From assembly GCA_001570385.1 (NCBI GenBank), contig BBYL01000008.1:1-64000 (forward strand): DNA of 64,000 nt. The letters are read 5' to 3'. Of the stretch, positions 9,053-28,218 are shown one piece after another. A program made the position numbers and the translations under genes. The notes beneath the pieces were generated by a model. That model worked only from the letters and a program-made list of their open reading frames with translations. It made no database searches and had not been told where the DNA came from. Each line of letters opens with the position of its first letter. Positions within the stretch are counted from its first letter, which is position 1. This DNA comes from Microtetraspora glauca. Lineage in GTDB: Bacteria > Actinomycetota > Actinomycetes > Streptosporangiales > Streptosporangiaceae.

Positions 9053-9063
9053 TCTCCTGCTGG

Positions 9064-9116
9064 TGGCAGGTCCAGGGTTCGAACCTGGGTAGGCTGAGCC
9101 GACGGTTTTACAGACC
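9064..9116. other. attL: Left attachment site, 53-bp direct repeat
   Basis: Identical over 53 bases to 28137-28189. It begins TGGCAGGTCCAGGGTTCGAA and ends CGACGGTTTTACAGACC. It contains the tRNA-Tyr acceptor, T-arm, variable arm and 3' half of the anticodon stem-loop, but not the 5' half of the tRNA. It marks the left end of the integrated element. Confidence 0.92.
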
Positions 9117-11383: not shown

Positions 11384-11824
11384 TCACTCGCGCCAGTCGG
11401 CCCTGCGATGCCTCCGCAAGAGCAGGAAGGCCCAGGCCGTCAGCACGGCTGGGCTCGCCCCAATCAGTGCGAGAACTACGCCTCCGACCTCGTAACCGCC
11501 CTCCCACCCGGCAAAAGCCATGAAGGCGACCGGCAGGCCCACGATCAGCCATGCCAGGTATCTCCCCCCGTTGGTCAGGTACTTCTTTTCGCTGGCGGGT
11601 GCCCAACTCAGTGCGACCTCAAGGGTGAGGAGCATCCCCACGAAGAGGGGGGCAACGTAGTAGTTCCAGTCTCCGCGATGCGCGGCAGTCGCGTAGGCCC
11701 ACGGAAGCCAGAACAGCCACGCCGCCCCGACAAGCGCCACGAGGTACAGACGGGAAACGCTGGGCTCCGCCCCAGAATGAGCCTTTTGCCATCCACGGAA
11801 TCGTTCGAGCCAGGGAAGCCTCAC
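11384..11824 (-). CDS. Membrane protein of unknown function (146 aa)
   Basis: About four hydrophobic segments: LYLVALVGAAWLFWLPWAYA, the segment around YYVAPLFVGMLLTLEVAL, YLAWLIVGLPVAFMAFAG, and VGGVVLALIGASPAVLTAWA. It ends in a basic tail (LRRHRRADWRE). The start is taken as GTG at 11824. No good ribosome binding site is visible. The symmetric GTTGAC array begins 45 bp upstream of this start, so the gene may be regulated from it. Not recognised. Confidence 0.5.
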   Translation of the reverse strand: MRLPWLERFRGWQKAHSGAEPSVSRLYLVALVGAAWLFWLPWAYATAAHRGDWNYYVAPLFVGMLLTLEVALSWAPASEKKYLTNGGRYLAWLIVGLPVAFMAFAGWEGGYEVGGVVLALIGASPAVLTAWAFLLLRRHRRADWRE

Positions 11825-11868: not shown

Positions 11869-12096
11869 GTTGACAGCGTTGACAGCGTTGACGCAATCCC
11901 TCATTCGAGCATGTCAGAGCGGCTATTGGTCTGACCCACTGCGCGTTGACAGCCGTTGACAGGCGTTGACACATTCCTAGAGCACTCCCTTTGTGTCAAC
12001 GCGCGTCAACGGCTGTCAACGCTCCGATCCATCCTTCGATATCAGGAATGACCTGCACCGATGCGTAGCCGTGTCAACGCTGTCAACGCTGTCAAC
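11869..12096. repeat. Exactly symmetric array of twelve GTTGAC boxes
   Basis: Three direct GTTGAC boxes at 9-bp period (11869, 11878, 11887) and three at 10-bp period (11945, 11955, 11965). Then come three inverted GTCAAC boxes at 10-bp period (11995, 12005, 12015) and three at 9-bp period (12073, 12082, 12091). Every box has its mirror partner about one centre, 11982.5. The two inner arms are nearly perfect inverted repeats over 30 bp, separated by a 24-bp centre. The 52-bp spacers on each side are equal in length but not in sequence. The array lies between the deaminase gene and the membrane gene. It could be an iteron origin, a regulator array or a recombination site. Confidence 0.85.
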
Positions 12097-12129: not shown

Positions 12130-12582
12130 TCAAGCCAGGAGATGCCCGTTGATCTCCTGAACGGACGTCGCCATGTCGCCGTACTCCAGGACGGAGATCC
12201 CCGCTTCCGCGAGCGTCTCGGCACCGCGACAGCCTTGGACCAGCAAATCCGGTTCGCGCCATGCGAAGACAACCCGACGGATGCCCGATCGCAGAATGAG
12301 TTCCGTGCAGGAGTTGGGCCGCGACTTACGGATCGTGCAGGGCTCCAATGAGCTGTAGATCGTGGCGGTCGGCAGTCGTGTGTCGTCAGCGGACAGCTTG
12401 CCGAGGGCGGATTCTTCAGCGTGCACATGCACATCTGTCTCGCGGGAGTATCCCTCTGCCATGAGATTGCCTGCGCCATCTACGATGACGGCCCCCACCG
12501 AGAAAGCCGTATGCGATGGCGGGCAGAGCCGCGACAACTCGATTGCCCGTGATAGCCAAACACGGTCGTCAGGCATGTTCAC
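12130..12582 (-). CDS. RibD-type pyrimidine deaminase
   Basis: A 150-residue zinc deaminase. The zinc/catalytic motif is HAEESAL, and the paired-Cys motif is SLEPCTIRKSRPNSC, which has the RibD spacing and RKSRP text rather than that of cytidine deaminases. The C-terminus reads SGIRRVVFAWREPD. GTG at 12582 overlaps the reductase stop (GTGA); ATG at 12576 is an alternative. In riboflavin synthesis this domain is fused in front of the reductase; here the two are separate genes in reverse order. The reaction is probably deamination of a pyrimidine or related heterocycle. The true substrate is unknown because no other riboflavin gene is present. Confidence 0.75.
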   Translation of the reverse strand: MNMPDDRVWLSRAIELSRLCPPSHTAFSVGAVIVDGAGNLMAEGYSRETDVHVHAEESALGKLSADDTRLPTATIYSSLEPCTIRKSRPNSCTELILRSGIRRVVFAWREPDLLVQGCRGAETLAEAGISVLEYGDMATSVQEINGHLLA

Positions 12583-13247
12583 CTGGGGAGATACCTCACC
12601 AACACGATGTCACCGATCTGCCTGACTTCTGCGACATCCATACGGCGCTGTGGGTTCTGCGGGAAGGTGCCGTCGTTGACAAATCTTGGAGCCGCTGAGT
12701 CACCCACGAAGAACGGCGCGATTGCCAGGTGAATTTCGTCAGCAAGTCCCTGGGTGAGGAACTGAGTATGGATGGTGCCGCCGCCTTCCACCATGAGAGT
12801 CTGGACACCGCGGGCTCCCAGGTCGTCGAGCACTGCGGGTAGTGACACAGGATCGCCGCCGTCCACGACGTTGGCGAAGTCCCCCAACTCTTCCCGCATC
12901 TTCTCCACAGCCGTCGTGGAGCTATAGACAAGCTTCTCTCCACCCGTGTGGAAGAATTTGAAGCTCGAATCAAGACCGCCGCCGGTAATGGTCACCTTGA
13001 TTGGGTATGGCGGAAGTCCACGACGTACCCGCTCCGTGCGGCGTTCTTCGGAGTTGACGAGCAGTCTCGGATTGTCACGGCGGATGGTGTTCCCGCCGAT
13101 CAGAATCGCATCGCAATTCGCGCGTACCTCGTCCACCCGGTCGAAGTCTTCCGCGTTCGACAACAGAAGTCGGTCGGGAGTCGTGTCGTCGATGTATCCG
13201 TCCACGGACATAGCAACGCTGAGGAGGACGTGAGGGCGTTTGCTCAT
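12579..13247 (-). CDS. RibD C-terminal/dihydrofolate reductase-like reductase
   Basis: A 222-residue reductase. It opens with MSKRPHVLLSVAMSVDGYID, typical of the RibD-C family. AILIGGNTIRRDNPRLLV is the conserved substrate/NADPH region, and TLMVEGGGTIHTQFL the cofactor-binding segment. The start at 13247 overlaps the regulator stop by ATGA, and its stop overlaps the deaminase start by GTGA. It is expected to reduce an N-glycosidic ribosyl or pterin-like group with NADPH in the cytosol. With the deaminase it forms a split RibD pair, an inference from family and context. Confidence 0.8.
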   Translation of the reverse strand: MSKRPHVLLSVAMSVDGYIDDTTPDRLLLSNAEDFDRVDEVRANCDAILIGGNTIRRDNPRLLVNSEERRTERVRRGLPPYPIKVTITGGGLDSSFKFFHTGGEKLVYSSTTAVEKMREELGDFANVVDGGDPVSLPAVLDDLGARGVQTLMVEGGGTIHTQFLTQGLADEIHLAIAPFFVGDSAAPRFVNDGTFPQNPQRRMDVAEVRQIGDIVLVRYLPR

Positions 13248-14668
13248 GAGGGGATTGTCCCGTTCCCTACGGCGGATGTGGAAATCATCTGGGTCAGGCT
13301 GGCAGTGAACTCTCTTACCTGCGGGATGGTCTTCCACCTGTCGAGTGCGCTACACAGGGGTGTCAGCTCGGCGACGATCCGCGCCGAACTCGTACCCCTC
13401 GCGATAGCCAGAGCTGCGCTGGCGGCGTGTGCCGCCTGCTCCGGCTCGCACGCCAAGGCATGAGATCGCGCCATCCGGCCAAGGTAGAGCCCTCGGTCGC
13501 GCTGGAATTCCGCAGGCCACCCGTTGAGCGCCTGTTCATAAGCCCGAATGGCTTTGTGGTGCTGCCCGAGATCTGCCCATCCGGCGGCTTCGTGAATGGT
13601 CACGTAGGCCGGCGTGCACCAAGGCGCCCAGTCGTCAGGGACAAGGGGAGGTGCGTGCTCTGCGAGGTCATGGGCCAGGTCGATCGCCGCTCTGAACGCG
13701 GCCTCGTCGCCAGCGAGAGCGTGGCCGCGGGCTTCGTACTGTACCGCGGCGGAGTGCACGCGGTGAGTCAAGCCGGGCTTTCGCTGTGCGGCCTGAGCAA
13801 GGCTGATAGCCGAAGCTGTGTCGGCGACTTCGCCCGCCCGCTGCGACTGCCGTAAGAGCACGTAACCGACCAACAGGTTGTTGTCAGCCTCGTGTGCCCA
13901 CTGAAGCGCATTGTTGATCCAGTGCTGTCCAGCATTGCGATCCCCAAGGTCATCAACCAGCCAGCCGGCGAACTCTGCGTAGGCCGCCTGGAGGTCCATG
14001 ACCGCAGCACGAGATCGGCCTGATGCTGTACGGCTCAGTTCTCGGAGAATGCTCACCTGGTGGACGGCGGTCGGCGCGACGGCGTTCGCTCCGAGGATGT
14101 TGTCTTGGGAGGCCAGGATGCCCCGGAGCTGCCACATGTTCTGAAGTACGTCTCTCAGATCACCTTCGGCAACCGGTGTCGGAACACCGGCAGCGCCGAT
14201 TCGGCTCTGACTGAGCCACGCCATTGCTGGCATGGCTGCGATGCCGGACATGAAGGTTCGGCGATCCATGGACACTGCTACCGGCTCCCCCGTGAGGCTC
14301 ATCATCTGAACGACAATGCTCTCCCCCGCATTCAAGTCCGACATAGCGCCGATCAGGCTTTCGGTACCGACAGTTCGCTTGTCGGTATGGGCGGCGTTGT
14401 CGGCACTGCGCCGCTCCTCATCGACTGCCTCCCAGAGCCGAACCAGGGCGCCGACGGTGTCTAGAGCGTGGTCACACCGCTCGGCGAAGTCCCGCGTTGG
14501 CCAGCGTTCGGCTATTTCGATAAGGCGGACTAGGTCGGCGCTGACGTGCACCTTTGCGCCTAGCCGCGCCTGTGAGAGTCCGCGCGCCTTACGCCAGGAC
14601 CTCAGCTCGAATCCAAAGCGATCCCGGGCTGAGCGCTGGGGGTGAAGTTCCAGTTCAGGGCGGGCCAT
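13244..14668 (-). CDS. XRE-family regulator with TPR-like domain (474 aa)
   Basis: Residues about 14-80 form a Cro/C1-type helix-turn-helix (ELRSWRKARGLSQARLGAKV). A DRRTFMSG string near 135 is the common linker of large actinomycete regulators. From about 200 onward the protein is alpha-helical with TPR-like repeats (AYAEFAGWLVDDLGDRNAGQ and HKAIRAYEQALNGWP). Such proteins often sense a small molecule or peptide through the helical domain. It is first in the operon and coupled to the reductase by ATGA. Two CTGTTACCGAC repeats upstream of its start are likely operators. Confidence 0.75.
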   Translation of the reverse strand: MARPELELHPQRSARDRFGFELRSWRKARGLSQARLGAKVHVSADLVRLIEIAERWPTRDFAERCDHALDTVGALVRLWEAVDEERRSADNAAHTDKRTVGTESLIGAMSDLNAGESIVVQMMSLTGEPVAVSMDRRTFMSGIAAMPAMAWLSQSRIGAAGVPTPVAEGDLRDVLQNMWQLRGILASQDNILGANAVAPTAVHQVSILRELSRTASGRSRAAVMDLQAAYAEFAGWLVDDLGDRNAGQHWINNALQWAHEADNNLLVGYVLLRQSQRAGEVADTASAISLAQAAQRKPGLTHRVHSAAVQYEARGHALAGDEAAFRAAIDLAHDLAEHAPPLVPDDWAPWCTPAYVTIHEAAGWADLGQHHKAIRAYEQALNGWPAEFQRDRGLYLGRMARSHALACEPEQAAHAASAALAIARGTSSARIVAELTPLCSALDRWKTIPQVREFTASLTQMISTSAVGNGTIPS

Positions 14669-14694
14669 GAATGGCGCCTTCCTTGTGGATACCG

Positions 14695-14740
14695 CTGTTA
14701 CCGACTCTGCCCGTGTCGGCTCCGAAACCCTGTTACCGAC
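14695..14740. promoter_or_regulatory. Direct repeats, candidate operators of the XRE regulator
   Basis: CTGTTACCGAC occurs twice, at 14695-14705 and 14730-14740, a 35-bp offset. Both lie in the gap upstream of the XRE gene start at 14668. A matched pair there suggests autoregulation and perhaps control of the divergent frame at 14824. Confidence 0.5.
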
Positions 14741-14823
14741 GCATGGCAGCGAGCACGCTTAGTGGTGTCCAACCTAACTGTCCGGCTTGACCGGAGTCGA
14801 TAACCACGAAGGGAGGTAATCAG

Positions 14824-18303: not shown

Positions 18304-18416
18304 GCCCGCGCACCCTCCACACCCGCACGACGCGGGGCGCGGCCTCATCCGCCAAGACCAAGCCGCGCCCCGCCACCCCGACCACCATCAACGCGCCCGA
18401 GGTGACGCCATCATGA
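18300..18416 (+). CDS. Tiny basic, Thr/Pro-rich protein (38 aa)
   Basis: Coupled by ATGA to both neighbours. The sequence is MSPRTLHTRTTRGAASSAKT then KPRPATP. It may be a true small protein or serve only to couple translation to traB. Confidence 0.4.
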   Translation: MSPRTLHTRTTRGAASSAKTKPRPATPTTINAPEVTPS

Positions 18417-20656
18417 CGCACAACCCCAACCAGCCCACCGACACCCCCACCGACCGCCCGGACCGGCCCGAGGACAAGGGCGCGGACATCGTCCAATTGG
18501 ACACTGCCCGCGACCGCCGCCAGCGCGGACCGATCGAGCTGCTCGACGACGACGAGTTCGCCCCCGCCCCCGGCACGGCGACCGGTCCCGCCGACGGTCC
18601 GGTCTTGGAAGGGCAGATCGTCCGCGTCGACTCCAACGACGGACCGGACCGCGGTGACTGGCTGGCCGACCTGGAGAACAAGGCCCGCGACCGCCGCCCG
18701 ATCGTCCCGCTGTGGCTGCGCTCCCGCACCGAGGCGATCGACACCCTCAAGTGGGTCGGCGCCCACTTCGCCCACGTCGCCGGTTTCCAGGTCACCCGCA
18801 CCCCGCTCTACGCCGGCCGTCTGGCCGTGCGCGCCCCGCGCGGCCTGGCCCGGCTCATCGCCGGCATGGTCAAGTGGACGTTCGACCTGGAGGGCATGCC
18901 GGTCCGGCTCTCCGCTGTCGGCAAGGCCGACGCAGAGGGATACCTGAAGCTGTCCCGTCAGCGGGACTCCCGGGTCCGGCTGCGCGTGTGGATCGCCGGA
19001 ACGGCGCTGGTCACGCTGCTGATCGCGGGCGTCCTCATCGCCTCGGCGCCCACCGCTGTGCAGTGGAGCGCGCTCGCCGTCGCGCTGGCCGTGCTCGGCA
19101 CGCTGGGCAAGCCCGCGGACCGGCCGCTGATCAACCGCGCCGTCATCCCCACCACGGTGGAGCGGCTGACCAGTGACATCGTGATCCGTGCGCTGACCGC
19201 GATCGGCGTGTCCGGCATCAACGCCAAGAACGCCGACGTGCGGTTCGTCGCCCCGATCACCCGTGACGGCCCCGGCTGGCGCGCGGACATCGACCTGCCG
19301 TATGGGGTGACGGTGGCCGACGTGCTGGATCGGCGCGACCGCATGGCGTCCGCGCTGCGCCGGCCGCTGGGCTGCATCTGGCCCGAGGGGGATTCCTCCG
19401 TCCACGAGGGGCGCCTGATCCTGTGGGTGGGCGACAAGGACCTGTCCAAGACCATCGTTAAGTCGCCGCTGCTCAAGGCCGCCTCGCACGACGTGTTCAA
19501 GGGCATCCCGTTCGGCAACGACCCCCGAGGCCGCCTTGTCACTGTGCCGCTCATCCAGCACAACATCCTGATCGGCTCCCTGCCCGGCCAGGGCAAGACC
19601 GCCTCGGTTCGCGAGCTGGCCGCCGGCATCGTGCTCGATGCCACCACCGAGGCGTGGTTCCACGAGCTCAAGGGCACCGGCGACCTGGACCCGTACGAGA
19701 AGGTCTGCCACCGGTACATCTCCGGCATCGAAGACGAGGCCATCGCGTATGCCGCGGACTCGCTGACGCTGCTGCGTCAGGAGGTCATGCGGCGGGCCGC
19801 CGCGCTCAAGACCCTGCCGTCGGACCTGTGCCCGGACAAGCGCGTGACCCGGCAGATCGCCGACAAGCGCTCTCTCGGACTTCACCCGCTGGTGGCCATC
19901 TTCGACGAGTGCCAGAACCTGTTCGCCCACCCCGAGTACGGCAAGCAGGCCGGCATGGATGCCGAGTTCATCATCAAGCTCGGTCGCGCGCTCGGTGTGG
20001 TGCTGATCCTCGCCACCCAGCGCCCGGACAAGGACAGCCTTCCCACCGGGATCAGCGCGAACGTGTCCATCCGGTTCTGCCTGCGGGTCGCCGGTCAGAT
20101 CGAGAACGACATGATCCTTGGCACGTCGGCGTACAAGAACGGCATCCGCGCCACCATGTTCGTGCCCGAGGCGGATGCAGGCACCGGGTACCTGGTCGGT
20201 GCGACACCGATGCCCAAGGTGGTCAAGGCTGCCTACCTTGACACCCCGGCCACCCAGCGGATCGCCGACCGCGCCCACGCCCTTCACATGGCCGCGGGGA
20301 CGCTGTCCGGGCACGCCACCGGCGAGCGGCCCGAGGCCGCCGCGCCCGCGTTCGATCTGCTGGCCGATATCGCCGCCGTCGTCGGCCCGCGCGAGGCGAA
20401 GGTGTGGAACGAGGTCGTGGTGGAGCGGCTGGCCGACGTGCGGCCCGAGATCTACGGGCCGTGGGCTGAGCTGGAGGGCGCGGCCAAGACCGCGCAACTG
20501 ACCAACGCGCTCAAGCCGTACGGCGTCAAGACCGGACAGGTGTGGGGGACCACCGAGGACGGCAAGGGCGCCAACCGGATCGGAATCGTCCGCGACGACA
20601 TCATCACCGCCATCACGAAGCGTGACGACAAGCGGGGTTCCGGCGCCGCTTCCTGA
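18413..20656 (+). CDS. TraB/FtsK-like DNA translocase for conjugation
   Basis: A 747-residue protein. An acidic, Pro-rich N-terminus is followed by two membrane segments around residues 195-230 (VWIAGTALVTLLIAGVLIAS and SALAVALAVLGTLG). The FtsK-type motor follows: Walker A GSLPGQGKT near 388 and Walker B LVAIFDECQN near 493, with ILATQRPDKDSLP after it. The C-terminal 80 residues (AAKTAQLTNALKPYGVKTGQ) fit the winged helix that reads the transfer repeats. This is the single-protein transfer machine of actinomycete elements, moving double-stranded DNA through a septal pore. It is the last gene before a repeat cluster that may be its target. Confidence 0.88.
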   Translation: MTHNPNQPTDTPTDRPDRPEDKGADIVQLDTARDRRQRGPIELLDDDEFAPAPGTATGPADGPVLEGQIVRVDSNDGPDRGDWLADLENKARDRRPIVPLWLRSRTEAIDTLKWVGAHFAHVAGFQVTRTPLYAGRLAVRAPRGLARLIAGMVKWTFDLEGMPVRLSAVGKADAEGYLKLSRQRDSRVRLRVWIAGTALVTLLIAGVLIASAPTAVQWSALAVALAVLGTLGKPADRPLINRAVIPTTVERLTSDIVIRALTAIGVSGINAKNADVRFVAPITRDGPGWRADIDLPYGVTVADVLDRRDRMASALRRPLGCIWPEGDSSVHEGRLILWVGDKDLSKTIVKSPLLKAASHDVFKGIPFGNDPRGRLVTVPLIQHNILIGSLPGQGKTASVRELAAGIVLDATTEAWFHELKGTGDLDPYEKVCHRYISGIEDEAIAYAADSLTLLRQEVMRRAAALKTLPSDLCPDKRVTRQIADKRSLGLHPLVAIFDECQNLFAHPEYGKQAGMDAEFIIKLGRALGVVLILATQRPDKDSLPTGISANVSIRFCLRVAGQIENDMILGTSAYKNGIRATMFVPEADAGTGYLVGATPMPKVVKAAYLDTPATQRIADRAHALHMAAGTLSGHATGERPEAAAPAFDLLADIAAVVGPREAKVWNEVVVERLADVRPEIYGPWAELEGAAKTAQLTNALKPYGVKTGQVWGTTEDGKGANRIGIVRDDIITAITKRDDKRGSGAAS

Positions 20657-20667
20657 CCGGCGGATCG

Positions 20668-20756
20668 CCTCTAGGTCTAGAGGCCACGCCCTCTAGACCT
20701 AGAGGCCCGCCTAGACCCCGTTCGTGGATCTACCAGCGACCTAGCGCCTAGACGCT
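20668..20756. repeat. CCTAG repeat cluster, candidate transfer locus (clt)
   Basis: CCTCTAGGTCTAGAGG at 20668-20683 and its exact reverse complement at 20690-20705 form a 16-bp-arm hairpin. GCCTAGAC then recurs twice and ACCTAGCG once before the next gene. The 139 bp hold no gene. Streptomyces clt loci lie beside traB and consist of 8-mer repeats plus an inverted repeat, which matches this layout though not the published 8-mers. Part of it may also terminate traB. Confidence 0.55.
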
Positions 20757-22381: not shown

Positions 22382-23931
22382 CACTGATGGATTGGTTCTG
22401 CGGCGCCGGTGGCTCTTCCCAGGGCGCTCACGCGGTGCCCGGCGTGGAAGTCACCCGCGCCGCCAACCACTGGGACACCGCCATTCAGTCCCACGCGCTG
22501 AACTTCCCCGCCGCCGACCACTACAAGGGCGACATCCGCACCGCCCCGGTCGAGCGCTGGCCCGTCGCTGACATCTTCTGGGCCTCTCCCGAGTGCCCGA
22601 AGTGGAGCCGCGCCCGCGGCAAGCGCCGCGACTTCCACAACACCCGGCAAGGCGAGTTGTTCGCGCTTCCCGACGCTGGCCGGTCGGAGGAAGACGAACG
22701 GTCCCGCGCGCTCATGCAGGAAGTCCCCCAATACCTGGAAGGCGTCCGGGCGCGCGGTGGCCGCGTGCTGGCGGGAGTGGTCGAGAACGTCATCGACTGC
22801 CGCGAGTGGGACCAGTGGGACGCCTGGATCGGCCGCCTGCACGCGCTGGGCTACCAGACCCACGTCATCGCGCTGAACTCCATGCACGCCCGCCCGATGC
22901 GCACCCCGGCCGCCCCGCAGTCCCGTGACCGCCTGTACGTCGCCTACTGGCATCGCAGCCTCCGACGCCGCCCGGACTTCGACAAGTGGCTACGGCCGAC
23001 CGCCTACTGCCCCACCTGCGACCGCACCGTCACCGCGATCCAGGTGTTCAAGAACCCGCGCAAGGACATGGGCCGCTACCGCCAGCAGTACCTTTACCGC
23101 TGCCCGCACACCACCTGCCGCAACGCCGTCGTCGAACCCACCGTGCTCCCGGCCGCGCACGCGATCGACTGGAGCATCCCCGGCAAGCGAATCGGGGACC
23201 GCACTGAGCCGCTCGCCGACGCCACCATGGACCGCATCCGCACCGGGATAGCCCGCTACTGGGGGCCGCTGCTGACCCCGGCCGGCGGCACCTGGCGCAA
23301 CGACGCGAGCCCGATCACGGCGCCGATGCCGACCCGCACCACACGCGAGAACGACGGCCTTGCCGTGCCGCCCATGCTGGTCCCGGTCGAAGGCCGTGAC
23401 GGCAAAACCGCCGCATCCGCCGCCGACCCGATGCGCACCCAGACCGCCCGCAACGAAACCGGCCTTGCCTTCCCGCCCGAGACGCTTCCGGCGTTCATCG
23501 CGGAGCTGCGCGGCGGCAGCTCCGATGCCCGATCCGTCGCTGAGGCGCTGGCCACCGTGACCGCCTCCGGCAACCACCACGGCCTTGTCACCCCACCCGG
23601 CCCGGCTGAGACCCTGCTGGTCCCGTACTACGGCACCGGCACCGCACGACCCGCCGCGCTCCCGGTCGGCGCGCTGACCACCCGCGACCGGTACGCCCTC
23701 GCCGCCGGTCAGGACGGCGCGAGCGTGGACGTGGACGACGTCCTTTTCCGGATGCTCGAACCCCACGAGATCGGCCGCGCAATGGCGTTCACCACCGGCT
23801 ATCAGGTGGTCGGCAACAAGCGGCAGAAGGTCCGCCAGTACGGCAACGCCGTCACCCCGCCCGTGGCCGAGGTCCTCGTATCGGCCCTCGTGGAGGCCAT
23901 CACCGGCACCGAGTTGGAGGCCGCCGCATGA
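22375..23931 (+). CDS. C5 cytosine DNA methyltransferase, divergent
   Basis: A 518-residue protein. Motif I is DWFCGAGGSSQG at residues 6-17. Motif IV reads WASPECPKWS, with Glu-Cys where most enzymes have Pro-Cys; the catalytic Cys74 is kept. Motif VI is VVENVID and motif VIII SRDRLYVAYW. A zinc ribbon (YCPTCDRT...YRCPHTTC) is inserted at about 205-245 in the target-recognition region. The C-terminus has motif X-like RQYGNAVTPPVAEV. No restriction gene is adjacent, so it is probably an orphan enzyme that protects or marks the element. GTG at 22375 overlaps the previous stop. Confidence 0.85.
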   Translation: MLTLMDWFCGAGGSSQGAHAVPGVEVTRAANHWDTAIQSHALNFPAADHYKGDIRTAPVERWPVADIFWASPECPKWSRARGKRRDFHNTRQGELFALPDAGRSEEDERSRALMQEVPQYLEGVRARGGRVLAGVVENVIDCREWDQWDAWIGRLHALGYQTHVIALNSMHARPMRTPAAPQSRDRLYVAYWHRSLRRRPDFDKWLRPTAYCPTCDRTVTAIQVFKNPRKDMGRYRQQYLYRCPHTTCRNAVVEPTVLPAAHAIDWSIPGKRIGDRTEPLADATMDRIRTGIARYWGPLLTPAGGTWRNDASPITAPMPTRTTRENDGLAVPPMLVPVEGRDGKTAASAADPMRTQTARNETGLAFPPETLPAFIAELRGGSSDARSVAEALATVTASGNHHGLVTPPGPAETLLVPYYGTGTARPAALPVGALTTRDRYALAAGQDGASVDVDDVLFRMLEPHEIGRAMAFTTGYQVVGNKRQKVRQYGNAVTPPVAEVLVSALVEAITGTELEAAA

Positions 23932-24836
23932 CCGGCACCGATCAGCTCCGTTACGCCCTCGCTGCCGCCGCTCGTGGCTGGCACGTCTTCCCGATCGCCT
24001 ACGGCGACAAGGTCCCGCTCAAGGGCTGGCCATGGAAGGAGCACACCACCACCGACCCGAGCGTGATCCGCCGATTCTGGACCAGCGGCGCCTACAACAT
24101 CGGCATCGCCACCGGCCCCTCCCGGCTCGTCGTGGTGGACCTGGACAAGCCCAAGCTCGGCGAGAGCACCCCGCCCAAGTGGGCGATTCCCGGTGTGAAC
24201 GACGGCGCCGACGTGCTCGCCGTGCTCTGCGAGCGCGCCGGCCAGCCGCTCCCGTTCGACACCTTCACCGTGACCACACGGCGCGGCGGGCTGCATCTGT
24301 ACTTCACCGCTCCCGACGGCGCCACGCTCGGCAACACCAGCGGCGACAAGGGCAACGGTCTCGGCTGGCTGATCGACACCCGCGCCGTCGGCGGATACGT
24401 CGTCGGCCCTGGCAGCTTCGTGGACCTCGAAGACGGCACCGGCCCCTACGAGGTGATCCGGGGCGGTGAGGTGGCGCCGCTGCCGGAATGGCTCGCCGTA
24501 CGGCTCACCCCCCGCACCCCGGAAACCATGCCCGCTACCCAGGTTCTGGCCGTATCCGCTGGAGGGATGGCCGCCGGCTACGCCCGCGCTGCGCTCCAAG
24601 GCGAGGTAGAGCGCGTGTTCGCTGCCGCACCCGGCACCCGCAACCACACTCTCAACACGGCCGCGTTCGCCTTGGGCCAGCTCATCGCCGGCGGACTGCT
24701 GCCGCGCCACCTGGTGGAGTCCGCTCTCCAGACGGCCGCCGAATCCATCGGCCTGACCTCGCGGGAAGCGTTCGCCACCATCCGATCCGGCATCGAGTCC
24801 GGGCATCGTCAGCCACGCCGTGGAGCCGCCGCGTGA
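23928..24836 (+). CDS. Bifunctional DNA primase/polymerase (Prim-Pol)
   Basis: A 302-residue protein with an archaeo-eukaryotic-primase-type core: LVVVDLDKPK (metal-binding Asp71 and Asp73), the His in GGLHLYF near 123, and DTRAVGGYVVGPGS. A short helical C-terminal domain follows (RNHTLNTAAFALGQLIAGG). Couplings are ATGA with the methyltransferase and GTGA with the next gene. In AICEs such proteins start or carry out element replication. Confidence 0.88.
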   Translation: MTGTDQLRYALAAAARGWHVFPIAYGDKVPLKGWPWKEHTTTDPSVIRRFWTSGAYNIGIATGPSRLVVVDLDKPKLGESTPPKWAIPGVNDGADVLAVLCERAGQPLPFDTFTVTTRRGGLHLYFTAPDGATLGNTSGDKGNGLGWLIDTRAVGGYVVGPGSFVDLEDGTGPYEVIRGGEVAPLPEWLAVRLTPRTPETMPATQVLAVSAGGMAAGYARAALQGEVERVFAAAPGTRNHTLNTAAFALGQLIAGGLLPRHLVESALQTAAESIGLTSREAFATIRSGIESGHRQPRRGAAA

Positions 24837-26410
24837 CCACCGCCACCCCACCGGAGCCGAGCGAGCGGGCCGCCGCGCTGCTGTCCAGCTTGGCCGCCGA
24901 CCACGTCATCACCGCCATACACGGCCAGCCCGCGCCGGGGGCGTCGATCGAGTGGGAGACGCCGGTCCCGCTCACCGCCCGGCCCATGCTCCCGGCCTTC
25001 CCCGCCCACACGCTGCCCTCATGGGCGGGACAGTTCACCGCCGCGCTCGCCGAGGAGACCCAGACCCCCACCGACCTGGCAGGGTGCATCGTGCTCGCCG
25101 CGTTGTCCACCGCCGCTGGCGGGCGCGCCCTGGTCAACGTGCGCGGCACCTGGCGCGAGCCGGTCAACCTGTTCGTCGTCGTCGCCATGCCGCCCGGCTC
25201 CCGCAAGTCCCCGGTGTTCCGGGCGATCGTCGCCCCGTTGCAGGCCGCGGAGAAGGCGTTGCAGGCGCAGACCAAGCCGCTCATCACCGAGGCCATGCTG
25301 ACCCAGCGGGTAGCCCAAGAGGCCGCCGACAAGGCCGCCCGCACGGCCGCCCACGCGCGAGGCGAGAACGCCGATACCGCCCTGGCCGAAGCCCAAAGCG
25401 CCGCCCTGGCCGTGGAGGACATCGCCGTCCCGGTAGAGCCGAGACTGATCGCCGACGACATCACCCCCGAGGCCGCCGCGACCCTGCTCGCCGAACAGGG
25501 CGGACGCCTCGCTGTCCTGTCGGCTGAGGGCGGCATCTTCGCCACCCTCGCTGGCCGCTACTCCGGCGTAGCGAACCTGGATCTCTTCCTGAAAGGCCAC
25601 GCCGGAGACCTGCTCATCGTGGACCGCCGCAACCGGCGCGAACGCATCGACCACGCCGCCCTCACGCTCGGTCTCGCGGTCCAGCCCGACATCGTCACCG
25701 AGATCGCCGGAAGCCCTGGATTCCGCGGCAAGGGTCTGCTCGGACGCATCCTCTACAGCCTCCCGCCCTCGAACGTCGGCTTCCGCCGGATCGACCCGCC
25801 GCCCATCCCCGAGAGCGTGTCAGCCGCCTACGCCACCAACCTGGAACGGCTCGTGCTCACCATGCACGGCTGGGACGACCCCGCGCAGCTCGTGCTCTCC
25901 CCCGAGGCGGGCGAGCTGTTCCACCAGCAGCGCGAGCGCACCGAACCCCGGCTACGCCCCGACGCCGGCGACTTGTCCCACATCGCCGATTGGGCCGCCA
26001 AGTTCGACGGCGCCGTTGCCCGCATCGCGGGACTGCTGCACCTGGCCGCCCACGTCGGCGACGGATGGCGACGCCCGATCAGCGCGGACACGATGACCGC
26101 CGCCATGGAGCTGGGCGAGTACTTCACCACTCACGCCCTGGCCGCGTTCGACGCCATGGGCCAGGACCCCAATGTGACCGCCGCCCGCACCGTTCATGAG
26201 TGGCTCAGCCGGACCCGGCCCGAGCACTTCACCCGGCGCGACGCACACCGGGCGCTGCAACGCCACTTCAAGAAGGCCGCCGACCTGGACCCCGCCGTAG
26301 AGCTGCTGGAACAGCTCGGCTGGATCCGACGCGAACCCGACCCGACCGGCACGCGCGGCAACCCCTCGCCGCGCTACGCCGTTCATCCCGACCTCAGCAC
26401 GCCCGTCTGA
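24833..26410 (+). CDS. DUF3987-type replication protein (P-loop, helicase-like)
   Basis: A 525-residue protein. MPPGSRKSPVFRAIVAPLQ contains a P-loop-like GSRKS. It is followed by a long Ala-rich coiled coil (about 145-200), RLAVLSAEGGIFATLAGRYS, RKGLLGRILYSLPPS-type text and a helical C-terminus. DUF3987 proteins pair with Prim-Pol proteins in integrative elements and are thought to act as the replicative ATPase. GTG at 24833 overlaps the Prim-Pol stop. Confidence 0.8.
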   Translation: MTTATPPEPSERAAALLSSLAADHVITAIHGQPAPGASIEWETPVPLTARPMLPAFPAHTLPSWAGQFTAALAEETQTPTDLAGCIVLAALSTAAGGRALVNVRGTWREPVNLFVVVAMPPGSRKSPVFRAIVAPLQAAEKALQAQTKPLITEAMLTQRVAQEAADKAARTAAHARGENADTALAEAQSAALAVEDIAVPVEPRLIADDITPEAAATLLAEQGGRLAVLSAEGGIFATLAGRYSGVANLDLFLKGHAGDLLIVDRRNRRERIDHAALTLGLAVQPDIVTEIAGSPGFRGKGLLGRILYSLPPSNVGFRRIDPPPIPESVSAAYATNLERLVLTMHGWDDPAQLVLSPEAGELFHQQRERTEPRLRPDAGDLSHIADWAAKFDGAVARIAGLLHLAAHVGDGWRRPISADTMTAAMELGEYFTTHALAAFDAMGQDPNVTAARTVHEWLSRTRPEHFTRRDAHRALQRHFKKAADLDPAVELLEQLGWIRREPDPTGTRGNPSPRYAVHPDLSTPV

Positions 26411-26430: not shown

Positions 26431-26628
26431 ATGGCCACCGGCACCAAGCCGCGAGGAACGCTCACCCTCGCCGAACTCTGCGAGGAACTCCAGATCTCCC
26501 GATCCACCTTCTACGACTGGCGCGCCAAGGGCCGCGCGCCCCGTTGCCTCAAGCTCCCCAACGGCGACCTCCGCATCCGCCGTACCGACCTGGACCGCTG
26601 GCTCTCGGAACTGGAGGACGCCGCTTGA
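26431..26628 (+). CDS. xis: Excisionase (MerR-like helix-turn-helix)
   Basis: A 65-residue protein: TLAELCEELQISRSTFYDWR then PNGDLRIRRTDLDRWL, the HTH_17/Xis fold. ATG at 26431 has AAGGAG at a good distance; an upstream ATG at 26410 overlaps the previous stop and is an alternative. The stop overlaps the integrase start (ATGA). It directs the integrase toward excision. Confidence 0.88.
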   Translation: MATGTKPRGTLTLAELCEELQISRSTFYDWRAKGRAPRCLKLPNGDLRIRRTDLDRWLSELEDAA

Positions 26629-28013
26629 TGAACGACATCAGCTATGACGTGCGCATTCATGGAATCGAGAAGCGTAAAAACGCCGAAGGGGCAGTTACCT
26701 CCTACCGTCTTTCGTGGAAGGTGGCAGGCAAGCCCTGGAAGGAGCGCTTCGGCACAGCCGCGCAGGCCGATGCTTTCCGCTCGGAACTCATGACCGCGGC
26801 ACGTCGTGGCGAGGCGTTCTCTCTGGCCACCGGTAGGCCGGCCTCGTGGGCGCGGGAGCAATCGGCGCTGAGGTGGTACGCGTTCACGCTGGCCTATGTG
26901 GATACCAAATGGCCGTATGCCTCGCCGAATCATCGGCGGGGCATCGCCGAAGCGCTCACAGACGCCACCGAGGCCCTTCTCACCGGAGACTGCGGGCACT
27001 CACGCGAGGCTCGACGCGCGGCCCTCCGCTGGGCATACAGCGCACGTGTACGGGACAACGAGGACCCGCCGACCGACCTCATCCCGGTGATCCGCTGGTT
27101 GGAAACCAACACGATCCCGATGACCGCGTTGGCCACGCGAGGCACGGGGGCCGCCCTGGTGCGGAACGCGCTGACCAGAATCAGCCAGACCAAGGAGGGC
27201 AAGGCCGCCGCCGCGAACACGGCCAACCGCAAGCGGATGGTGCTCAACAACGCGATGGAGTACGCGTGTGAGATCGGCGTACTTTCGTCCAATCCGCTCA
27301 AGGCTGTGAAGTGGACCAAGCCTCGCACGCTGACCAGCGTGGATCCGCGCGTGGTCATCAACACCGATCAAGCCCGGCGTTTCCTCGCCGCTGTGGAGGC
27401 GCACAGCGAGCGCGGCAAGAGGATGAAGGCGTTCTTCGGCTGCATGTACTACGCGGGACTTCGGCCAGAGGAAGCCGTGGACCTGCGCAGAGAGCACCTG
27501 ATCAGCCTCCCCGAGGCCGCTGAGGAATGGGGAGAGATGCGCCTGACGAACGCTGAACCCCGCTCCGGAAGCCGCTGGACGAACAACGGCAAACCGCGGG
27601 AACGTCGCAGCCTGAAGCACCGAGCGGACGGAGACACCCGCCCCGTGCCCATTCATCCCGATCTCGTGGCACTGCTGCGCTCGCACCTGGTGGCTTACGG
27701 TGTCGGCGCTGAGGGCCGCGTGTTCGTCGGTCCACGGAATGGGCTGATGACCGATAGGGCCTATCTCAAGGTGTTCCACGACGCGAGGGCCAAGGCGTTC
27801 ACCAAGGAGGAAGCCGCCTCACCGCTCATGGACGTGCCGTACTCGCTTCGGCATGCGGCGGTATCCACTTGGCTACGCACCGCCGGGGACCCTGCCCAGG
27901 TCGCTGAGTGGGCAGGGCACAGCGTGGCCGTGCTGTTGCGCGTCTATGCCAAGTGCATCCACGGCATGGAGAAGGAAGCTCTACGCCGAATCTGGGACGC
28001 CACCCGCCGTTGA
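26628..28013 (+). CDS. int: Tyrosine site-specific integrase of the element
   Basis: A 461-residue recombinase. It has an N-terminal arm-binding part (SYRLSWKVAGKPWKERFGTA) and a core-binding helical region. In the catalytic domain the first Arg is in MYYAGLRPEEAVDL, LRHAAVSTW is the HxxR-type box, and EWAGHSVAVLLRVYAKC holds the Tyr nucleophile. It lies beside the attachment site in tRNA-Tyr, which is the target tRNA of the Streptomyces element SLP1. Coupled to xis by ATGA. Confidence 0.93.
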   Translation: MNDISYDVRIHGIEKRKNAEGAVTSYRLSWKVAGKPWKERFGTAAQADAFRSELMTAARRGEAFSLATGRPASWAREQSALRWYAFTLAYVDTKWPYASPNHRRGIAEALTDATEALLTGDCGHSREARRAALRWAYSARVRDNEDPPTDLIPVIRWLETNTIPMTALATRGTGAALVRNALTRISQTKEGKAAAANTANRKRMVLNNAMEYACEIGVLSSNPLKAVKWTKPRTLTSVDPRVVINTDQARRFLAAVEAHSERGKRMKAFFGCMYYAGLRPEEAVDLRREHLISLPEAAEEWGEMRLTNAEPRSGSRWTNNGKPRERRSLKHRADGDTRPVPIHPDLVALLRSHLVAYGVGAEGRVFVGPRNGLMTDRAYLKVFHDARAKAFTKEEAASPLMDVPYSLRHAAVSTWLRTAGDPAQVAEWAGHSVAVLLRVYAKCIHGMEKEALRRIWDATRR

Positions 28014-28127: not shown

Positions 28128-28136
28128 TTGCTGGTG

Positions 28137-28189
28137 TGGCAGGTCCAGGGTTCGAACCTGGGTAGGCTGAGCCGACGGTTTTACAGACC
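28137..28189. other. attR: Right attachment site, 53-bp direct repeat
   Basis: Identical to 9064-9116. Here it forms the 3' two-thirds of the intact tRNA-Tyr, so integration keeps the tRNA functional. The element between the repeats is about 19.1 kb. Confidence 0.92.
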
Positions 28190-28218
28190 GCTCCCTTTGG
28201 CCGCTCGGGCAACCTGCC
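28137..28218 (-). tRNA. tRNA-Tyr (anticodon GTA)
   Basis: The 82-nt minus-strand RNA begins GGCAGGTTGCCCGAGCGGCC. Its anticodon loop is CTGTAAA (anticodon GTA), and it has a long class II variable arm and the T-loop GGTTCGAACC. The 7-bp acceptor stem GGCAGGT/ACCTGCC closes it, with A as discriminator. CCA is not encoded. The 3' part is supplied by the integrated element. Confidence 0.93.

Follow-up and report, generated by a model that had tools for sequence, protein, structure and literature searches.

A mirror-symmetric array of twelve GTTGAC boxes as a candidate replication origin of an AICE-like element in Microtetraspora glauca

The alpha protein of phage P4 contains a winged helix, and the P4 iteron box, GGTGAACA, resembles the GGTGACA box of the arrays described here. 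In the P4 literature, alpha is a primase-helicase that recognizes its own origin, the role that we propose for a DUF3987 protein, although P4 has a Toprim-type primase and the primase here is a Prim-Pol protein. SaPI/PICI origins, according to PMC6092414, consist of two sets of short iterons, like the arrays studied here, and lie immediately 3′ of the rep gene, as do the arrays in 11 of our 68 loci; iteron sequences are given there per element, and a pri-rep-ori segment drives replication. Unlike a PICI, the present element is AICE-like and no phage satellite, carries Prim-Pol plus DUF3987, and has a 12-box mirror with fixed 9/10/10/9 periods; its center is only mildly AT-rich. Plasmid pRN1 (PMC4234260) encodes a primase/helicase with a C-terminal winged helix, as in our DUF3987 model, and has an essential origin just 3′ of that gene, the structure of which is kept while its sequence varies; that origin is a 100-nt stem-loop, whereas the arrays here are iterons. 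SLP1 and other Prim-Pol AICEs combine an integrase, FtsK-type transfer and a Prim-Pol gene followed by a replication gene, as the element in the window appears to do, and Prim-Pol was located in one of the two regions that are important for replication of SLP1; the relevant passages of the same source describe a rolling-circle dso for pSAM2 and no origin for Prim-Pol-type AICEs (PMC3218068). The term DUF3987 occurs 0 times in PMC3218068, and PMC5862659 gives DUF3987 as a predicted helicase. By the sequence-only reading of this DNA, no AICE site of this form is known to be described, and we likewise found none among the listed open-access titles and abstract openings on DUF3987, GTTGAC iterons, TGTTGACA phage replication, Prim-Pol AICEs and SLP1 SCO4618; of the papers listed on iterons, winged helices or double hexamers, none mentioned DUF3987.

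Within the window, a stretch of 64,000 nucleotides from M. glauca, lies a 19-kb element. A 54-bp repeat of the 3′ part of tRNA-Tyr marks its two ends, and it carries genes for a tyrosine integrase, an FtsK-like translocase, a C5 methyltransferase, a Prim-Pol protein and a DUF3987 protein (Table 1). With its tyrosine integrase, tRNA att sites and Prim-Pol-type replication module (PF09250 and PF13148), it resembles the actinomycete integrative elements of the Prim-Pol type and is AICE-like. The GTG start of DUF3987, which overlaps the Prim-Pol stop codon, was picked by eye from the sequence. The FtsK-like protein has no Pfam match, and its NCBIfam matches to an EccCa domain (6.2e-09) and plasmid TraB (7.9e-04) both lie far below the cut-offs; homologues are present in related loci, one of them annotated 'cell division protein FtsK'. 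Beside the array, on the minus strand at 12130–14668, are cargo genes for a deaminase-like protein, a RibD_C reductase and an NsdA-family regulator.

Table 1. Coordinates of the array and of the features of the AICE-like element in the window
Feature	Position	Strand	Support
attL, 54-bp direct repeat of tRNA-Tyr 3′ part	9063..9116	.	
Outer left triplet, period 9 (GTTGACAGC GTTGACAGC GTTGAC)	11869..11892	+	
Left copy of mirrored spacer 8-mer, GCATGTCA, −70 from center	11909..11916	+	
Inner left triplet, period 10	11945..11970	+	
Central 24-bp spacer, GC 0.46	11971..11994	.	
Inner right triplet, period 10	11995..12020	-	
Right copy of spacer 8-mer, TGACCTGC (= GCAGGTCA on - strand), +70	12049..12056	-	
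Outer right triplet, period 9	12073..12096	-	
FtsK/TraB-like DNA translocase	18413..20656	+	Weak NCBIfam matches, homologues
Separate array, seven CTAG boxes (CCTAGGTCTAGAGG...), directly 3′ of FtsK-like gene	20671..20752	.	
Prim-Pol primase/polymerase	23928..24836	+	PF09250 2.1e-42
DUF3987 AAA+ helicase, 525 aa, proposed initiator	24833..26410	+	PF13148 Pfam 3.3e-108
C-terminal winged-helix domain of DUF3987 (residues 446-520), proposed box reader	26168..26392	+	AlphaFold models
Tyrosine integrase	26544..28013	+	PF00589 6.9e-07, PHROG integrase 6e-23
attR inside tRNA-Tyr (28136-28218, - strand)	28136..28189	.	

The array comprises twelve GTTGAC boxes at 11869–12096 in four groups of three with periods 9/10/10/9, six on the plus strand (11869, 11878, 11887, 11945, 11955, 11965) and six on the minus strand (11995, 12005, 12015, 12073, 12082, 12091). 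All six mirror pairs share one center, 11982.5, and the two halves flank the central region, with spacers of 52, 24 and 52 bp; the positions, grouping and single center given by the sequence-only reading were thus all confirmed. The outer boxes are alike beyond the hexamer (unit TTGACAGCG). GC content is 0.56 in the array, lower still in the central spacer (Table 1) and 0.67 in the element, so the AT-richness of the array is only mild. GTTGAC occurs 37 times in the window against 24.5 (SD, 4.8) expected, a count that none of 100 shuffles reached, and spaced triplets (gaps of 2 to 5) occur four times against 0.00 in 100 shuffles. The window holds a single GTTGAC array; the rest of the 9.27-Mb genome has no further triplet, and the triplet pattern read backwards gave 0 matches in the whole genome. 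A box-agnostic scan of 2.42 Mb for at least four mirrored copies of one hexamer found five sites against none in a control that was reversed but not complemented, while exactly three mirrored pairs were found at 20 real and 10 control sites. Triplet shuffles, the whole-genome count and the mirror scan against its control together rule out chance repeats. Among the mirror sites, L302, one of the five, was dropped as a tandem repeat, and those of L291/L292 were dropped for their CRISPR-type repeat look (61-bp period). A general run-based symmetry scan was too insensitive (25 real versus 19 control sites, many from L291/L292).

The sequence-only reading had called the 52-bp spacers unrelated. The left spacer is 52% identical to the reverse complement of the right, against 54% in shuffles, and the two are thus unrelated overall; that reading overlooked, however, an 8-mer, GCWGGTCA, mirrored 70 bp to either side of the center, the left copy with one mismatch against the right.

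When the formal layout of 3×9/3×10/3×10/3×9 was scored in 29 loci, the window reached 58/60, three Herbidospora elements 56, 56 and 55/60 (box TGACA), and G018 and G222 69/72 and 66/72 (box CGCAGA), against shuffle maxima (eight per locus) of 38/60 and 47/72. A search for the 228-bp layout elsewhere, as proposed at the outset, therefore produced five good fits far above shuffles, from Herbidospora and two further genera. Scores were weaker in G179 (44/60), in L153, L228, L229 and G091 (40–45/60) and in G204-type loci (50–53/72); G293 and G123, at 35/60, were no better than shuffles and do not fit the 12-box layout, and the remaining tested loci were at shuffle level except G231 (52/72) and G304 (54/72). 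Left and right outer spacers in the well-fitting elements, the window included, measure 52/52, 51/50, 51/50, 51/50, 62/61 and 60/62 bp: they are matched within each element and therefore shift between elements by about one helical turn. In all three Herbidospora species the left outer spacer measures 51 bp, at a near-chance identity of 59–65% (shuffle means, 54–55%; maxima, 63–67%); the right spacer is 50 bp, and its sequence is conserved too (72–94%). The earlier proposal of selection on spacing, and hence of an assembly that reads position, is upheld by the five layout fits and by the constant length of the Herbidospora left spacer.

DUF3987 proteins were found in 24 of 120 genomes of the family and, in a second search (E up to 1e-40), in 75 of 297. 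Our 68 DUF3987 loci are 59 merged loci, the window, a Streptomyces plasmid, and L181, L227–L231 and L234; the merged loci take 20 of the 26 non-window places of the first PF13148 search and 39 from the second, leaving out six partial PF13148 matches of the first and the remaining places of the second. Arrays were accepted in 27 of the 68 loci: 11 at the DUF3987 stop codon (G091, G063:C16, G068, G104, G066, G233, G123, G293, L153, L228, L229), 12 found de novo at distal positions (the window, G018, G057, G274:C29, G204, G257, G198, G164, G241:C4, G261, G150, G179) and four found by a box scan (G110, G148, G162, G222). Weaker or odd clusters in G190, L234, G140, G026, G304, G231 and L181 were left unaccepted. 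The other 41 loci, several of whose stretches stop at contig edges, have no accepted array; among them are all 20 loci of the A helix class defined below, and none was detected in the window-related V-class loci L227 (protein 68% identical), G305, G283 and G221. Boxes of the de novo arrays vary (CGCAGAA, GACAGAA, GGTGACA, GATGACA, ACAGAAA and others). Exact mirrors recur in G057 (four pairs, one center) and on the Streptomyces plasmid NZ_CP107792 (three pairs), and the arrays of G068, G104, G066, G123 and G233 are of mixed orientation with no clean mirror. With the array DNA as query, blastn (E 1e-3) found no relatives in phages or plasmids. GTTGAC triplets occurred in 17 of 250 family genomes (backwards control, 6), and among these 250 only the window's genome had them on both strands. 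The Streptomyces plasmid (L153, NZ_CP107792.1; 18.4 kb), which encodes an integrase, resembles an AICE-type element in free circular form, and its inverted GACAGAAC array (14539–14789) adjoins the DUF3987 stop codon.

The position of the array relative to DUF3987 and the att sites bears on what the array does. In 11 of the 68 loci the array start falls between −9 and +26 bp of the DUF3987 stop codon, against 0.09 loci expected (P about 1e-19). In the window it lies instead at the far end of the integrated element, opposite DUF3987 and thus not in the PICI position 3′ of rep. Once an element is circularized, however, both placements come to lie downstream of DUF3987, the distal type with int and attP in between. 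Arm-type sites for the integrase or an excisionase, that is, part of a recombination site, would be expected close to att, and in 6 of 18 loci tested (G018, G222, G257, G241, G057, G179) the array is indeed 188–388 bp inside attL. This explanation is nevertheless quite improbable: the distance is 2.75 kb in the window, 4.3 kb in G261 and 10–13 kb in Herbidospora, where the att repeats are 93–97.5% identical, and the L228 array adjoins DUF3987 with the nearest tRNA gene 3.3 kb away and no att repeat found. Att repeats in related loci were called by a single script, which located no pair for G204, G198, G164, L228 and G091. The boxes also do not follow the integrase, since those of the window and G222 differ although their integrases are 67% identical, and those of the window and G162 are of the same family with integrases only 46% identical.

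AlphaFold models show the last 80 residues of DUF3987 as a winged helix (pLDDT, 66–89 per ten-residue block), with helices at residues 446–461, 468–474 and 482–494 and strands at 465–467, 498–500 and 514–517. Winged-helix proteins are its top structural matches (VIA-align Z up to 8.9 over 81 residues), with Foldseek E values no better than 3.6e-3. Helix 2 and the following turn track the box: the window has FTRRDAHRALQR-HF and box GTTGACAGC, G179 has FTRREAHRAMQR-RF and GGTGACAGC, G018 has FTVREAFTALPRSRF and CGCAGAATC, the GCAGAACC group has FTVREAFSGLPRGTF, and the Streptomyces plasmid has FTKRELFRGLPRGDF and TGACAGAAC. The DUF3987 cores of G179 and G018 are 95% identical (17 of 347 residues differ), yet their boxes are different, and the differences between the two proteins are concentrated in helix 2-turn (8/18) and the wing (8/13; 16/31 together, p = 1.4e-10), with 4/17 in helix 3. 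Between G018 and G222, which have the box CGCAGA in common, 1 of 18 residues differs in helix 2-turn and 0 of 13 in the wing. Since winged helix and box change together, the DUF3987 winged helix is the likely reader of the boxes, as far as sequence comparison and models can tell.

The G179/G018 pair also bears on regulation. Their XRE-type regulators are 96% identical over 457 aa (26% to the XRE protein of the window, which matches the NsdA family) and stand beside two different boxes, so the regulator is not what changes the box. A cooperative operator of this NsdA-like regulator, or a promoter region of the membrane ORF at 11384–11824, is accordingly a highly improbable explanation, even though the array lies 44 bp upstream of a possible start of that ORF and the boxes contain a −35-like TTGACA. 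In G179 (locus L293 near 2571) the membrane ORF is apparently cut to its 3′ part with the array kept, and CGCAGAA boxes have no −35 core.

Scanning the 68 loci for three box types revealed ordered TGACA arrays in the three Herbidospora loci, which had been missed de novo, and an ordered GCAGA array in G222, a later-added stretch. Each of these four agrees with its helix class, the Herbidospora helix being that of the window bar one or two residues. At a threshold of 6, the K/R/Q/P helix class (n = 12) had 11 TGACA, 0 GCAGA and 1 without an array; the V class (n = 24) had 11 GCAGA, 2 TGACA and 11 without; and all 20 A-class and all 12 unclassified loci had none. Fisher's test on positives only gives 3e-5, a value that overstates independence because seven of the 11 V-class positives come from one genus (G204, G257, G198, G164, G241, G261, G150). 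The classes were set after the first array-bearing proteins had been inspected, and, with loci also related, the near-independent evidence consists of the G179/G018 swap pair and the four later arrays. G190 and G233 fall into the V class by regular expression yet have TGACA-type boxes; the V-class loci without a GCAGA array are G305, G283, G221, G322, L227, G069, G063:C3, G298:C220, G231, G104 and G140, of which G104 and G140 have other boxes. At a threshold of 5, clusters of either box appeared in five A-class loci too.

Counted with up to one mismatch to GCAGGTCA, after it had first been spotted by eye, the spacer 8-mer GCWGGTCA is enriched 2.8-fold in arrays (43 in 7,861 bp versus 1,896 in 961,522 bp; post hoc Poisson p = 7e-9). 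At least one copy, again with up to one mismatch, is present in 25 of 27 arrays, a set that differs slightly from the accepted 27 in including L181 and G190 and omitting G150 and G063:C16. Because it accompanies both box classes, the winged helix is probably not its reader. A tentative generalization is possible, though we give it less than even confidence: the geometry (9/10/10/9 periods, mirror, helical-turn spacer steps) would be the conserved signal, and the box a swappable address exchanged together with helix-turn and wing.

As in iteron origins, the array clusters repeats of one short box, here twelve, within a replicon. It probably serves as the origin from which the element replicates once excised as a circle, the DUF3987 winged helix reading the boxes in two opposed sets and Prim-Pol priming. 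In this model, the C-terminal winged helix would attach DUF3987 helicase subunits to the boxes, of which each half has six, in opposite orientation to those of the other half; the fixed mirror geometry would set two DUF3987 rings head to head, the opposed rings would open the DNA, and the Prim-Pol partner would then make primers. With six boxes in each half, every subunit of a hexamer could take one; the fewer boxes per half in L028, a phage array described below, and G057 argue against a strict one-box-per-subunit rule. The MCM double-hexamer helicase likewise has an AAA+ core followed by a winged helix. The predicted DUF3987 core aligns to MCM (Z, 11.9; 261–270 residues; rmsd, 4.3–4.6) in a re-examination of Foldseek's own list, and all 50 structural matches listed for the core are MCM, CMG, OCCM or replisome entries. 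The resemblance is one of fold only: Foldseek gave no match for the core below 1e-3 (best, 2.7e-3), and a sequence search against the PDB gave none at E up to 1. Among the site types offered by the sequence-only reading, an iteron origin for the Prim-Pol/DUF3987 pair is thus favored, while its recombination site is opposed by the varying att distance and its regulator array by the near-identical XRE proteins beside different boxes.

Besides ori, phage P4 has a separate crr. By analogy, the array could be a cis-acting replication or copy-control site that is read by DUF3987 while synthesis starts elsewhere. Box-helix covariation suits any DUF3987-read site, and the array center is not strongly AT-rich, but we regard this as unlikely, since there is only the one GTTGAC array in the window and the array adjoins the helicase gene in 11 loci, the place where PICI and pRN1 origins lie.

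FtsK/TraB-type translocases read clusters of short direct repeats, and on this ground the array might be a transfer site (clt) for the FtsK/TraB-like protein. That has very little probability, because a separate CTAG array lies directly 3′ of the FtsK-like gene (Table 1), and in 22 of the 68 loci CTAG or CTAC box arrays precede the end of the DUF3987 gene by 2.4–6.2 kb. For a transfer site, the CTAG array, which is no part of the origin, is the stronger candidate.

Most likely, then, the GTTGAC array is an iteron origin of PICI/P4-like logic in an AICE-like element, marked by an uncommonly strict geometry and by boxes that vary along with a short stretch of protein. It offers a concrete origin candidate with a named likely reader domain and natural element pairs that exchange box and winged helix together. 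Origins in related elements could become predictable from a protein helix, and the system could serve as a model, in bacteria, of the way in which a loading helicase gauges spacing.

Spaced GTTGAC triplets also occur in at least 120 stretches of viral contigs, some of them dense non-coding arrays in both orientations. The mirrored-pair pattern is present in 11 viral contigs, and near-exact mirrors of the form 3+2+2+3 span 250 bp in L028, L082 and L152. Among the matches listed, 29 of 128 loci pack six or more boxes, with both orientations represented, into 400 bp. The largest neighboring ORF in these 29, again among the matches listed, is VapE in nine, DUF5906 in nine (the two may overlap) and DUF3987 in two, against three, three and none in 50 controls; DUF5906 plus DUF3987, as 11/29 versus 3/50 among the matches listed, gives a Fisher p of 6e-4 if the DUF5906 and DUF3987 sets do not overlap. 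Terminase gpA did not differ among the matches listed (4/29 versus 7/50). Controls were 50 of the 99 non-array loci, taken in order, and the long ORF of L009 was skipped. These counts indicate that phage GTTGAC arrays tend to accompany replicative primase-helicases. By eye, the protein tails of L145, L147, L148, L149 and L150 have no obvious DUF3987-like helix motif; in the same five phage loci, large primase-helicase-like genes have the GTTGAC arrays at their 3′ ends.
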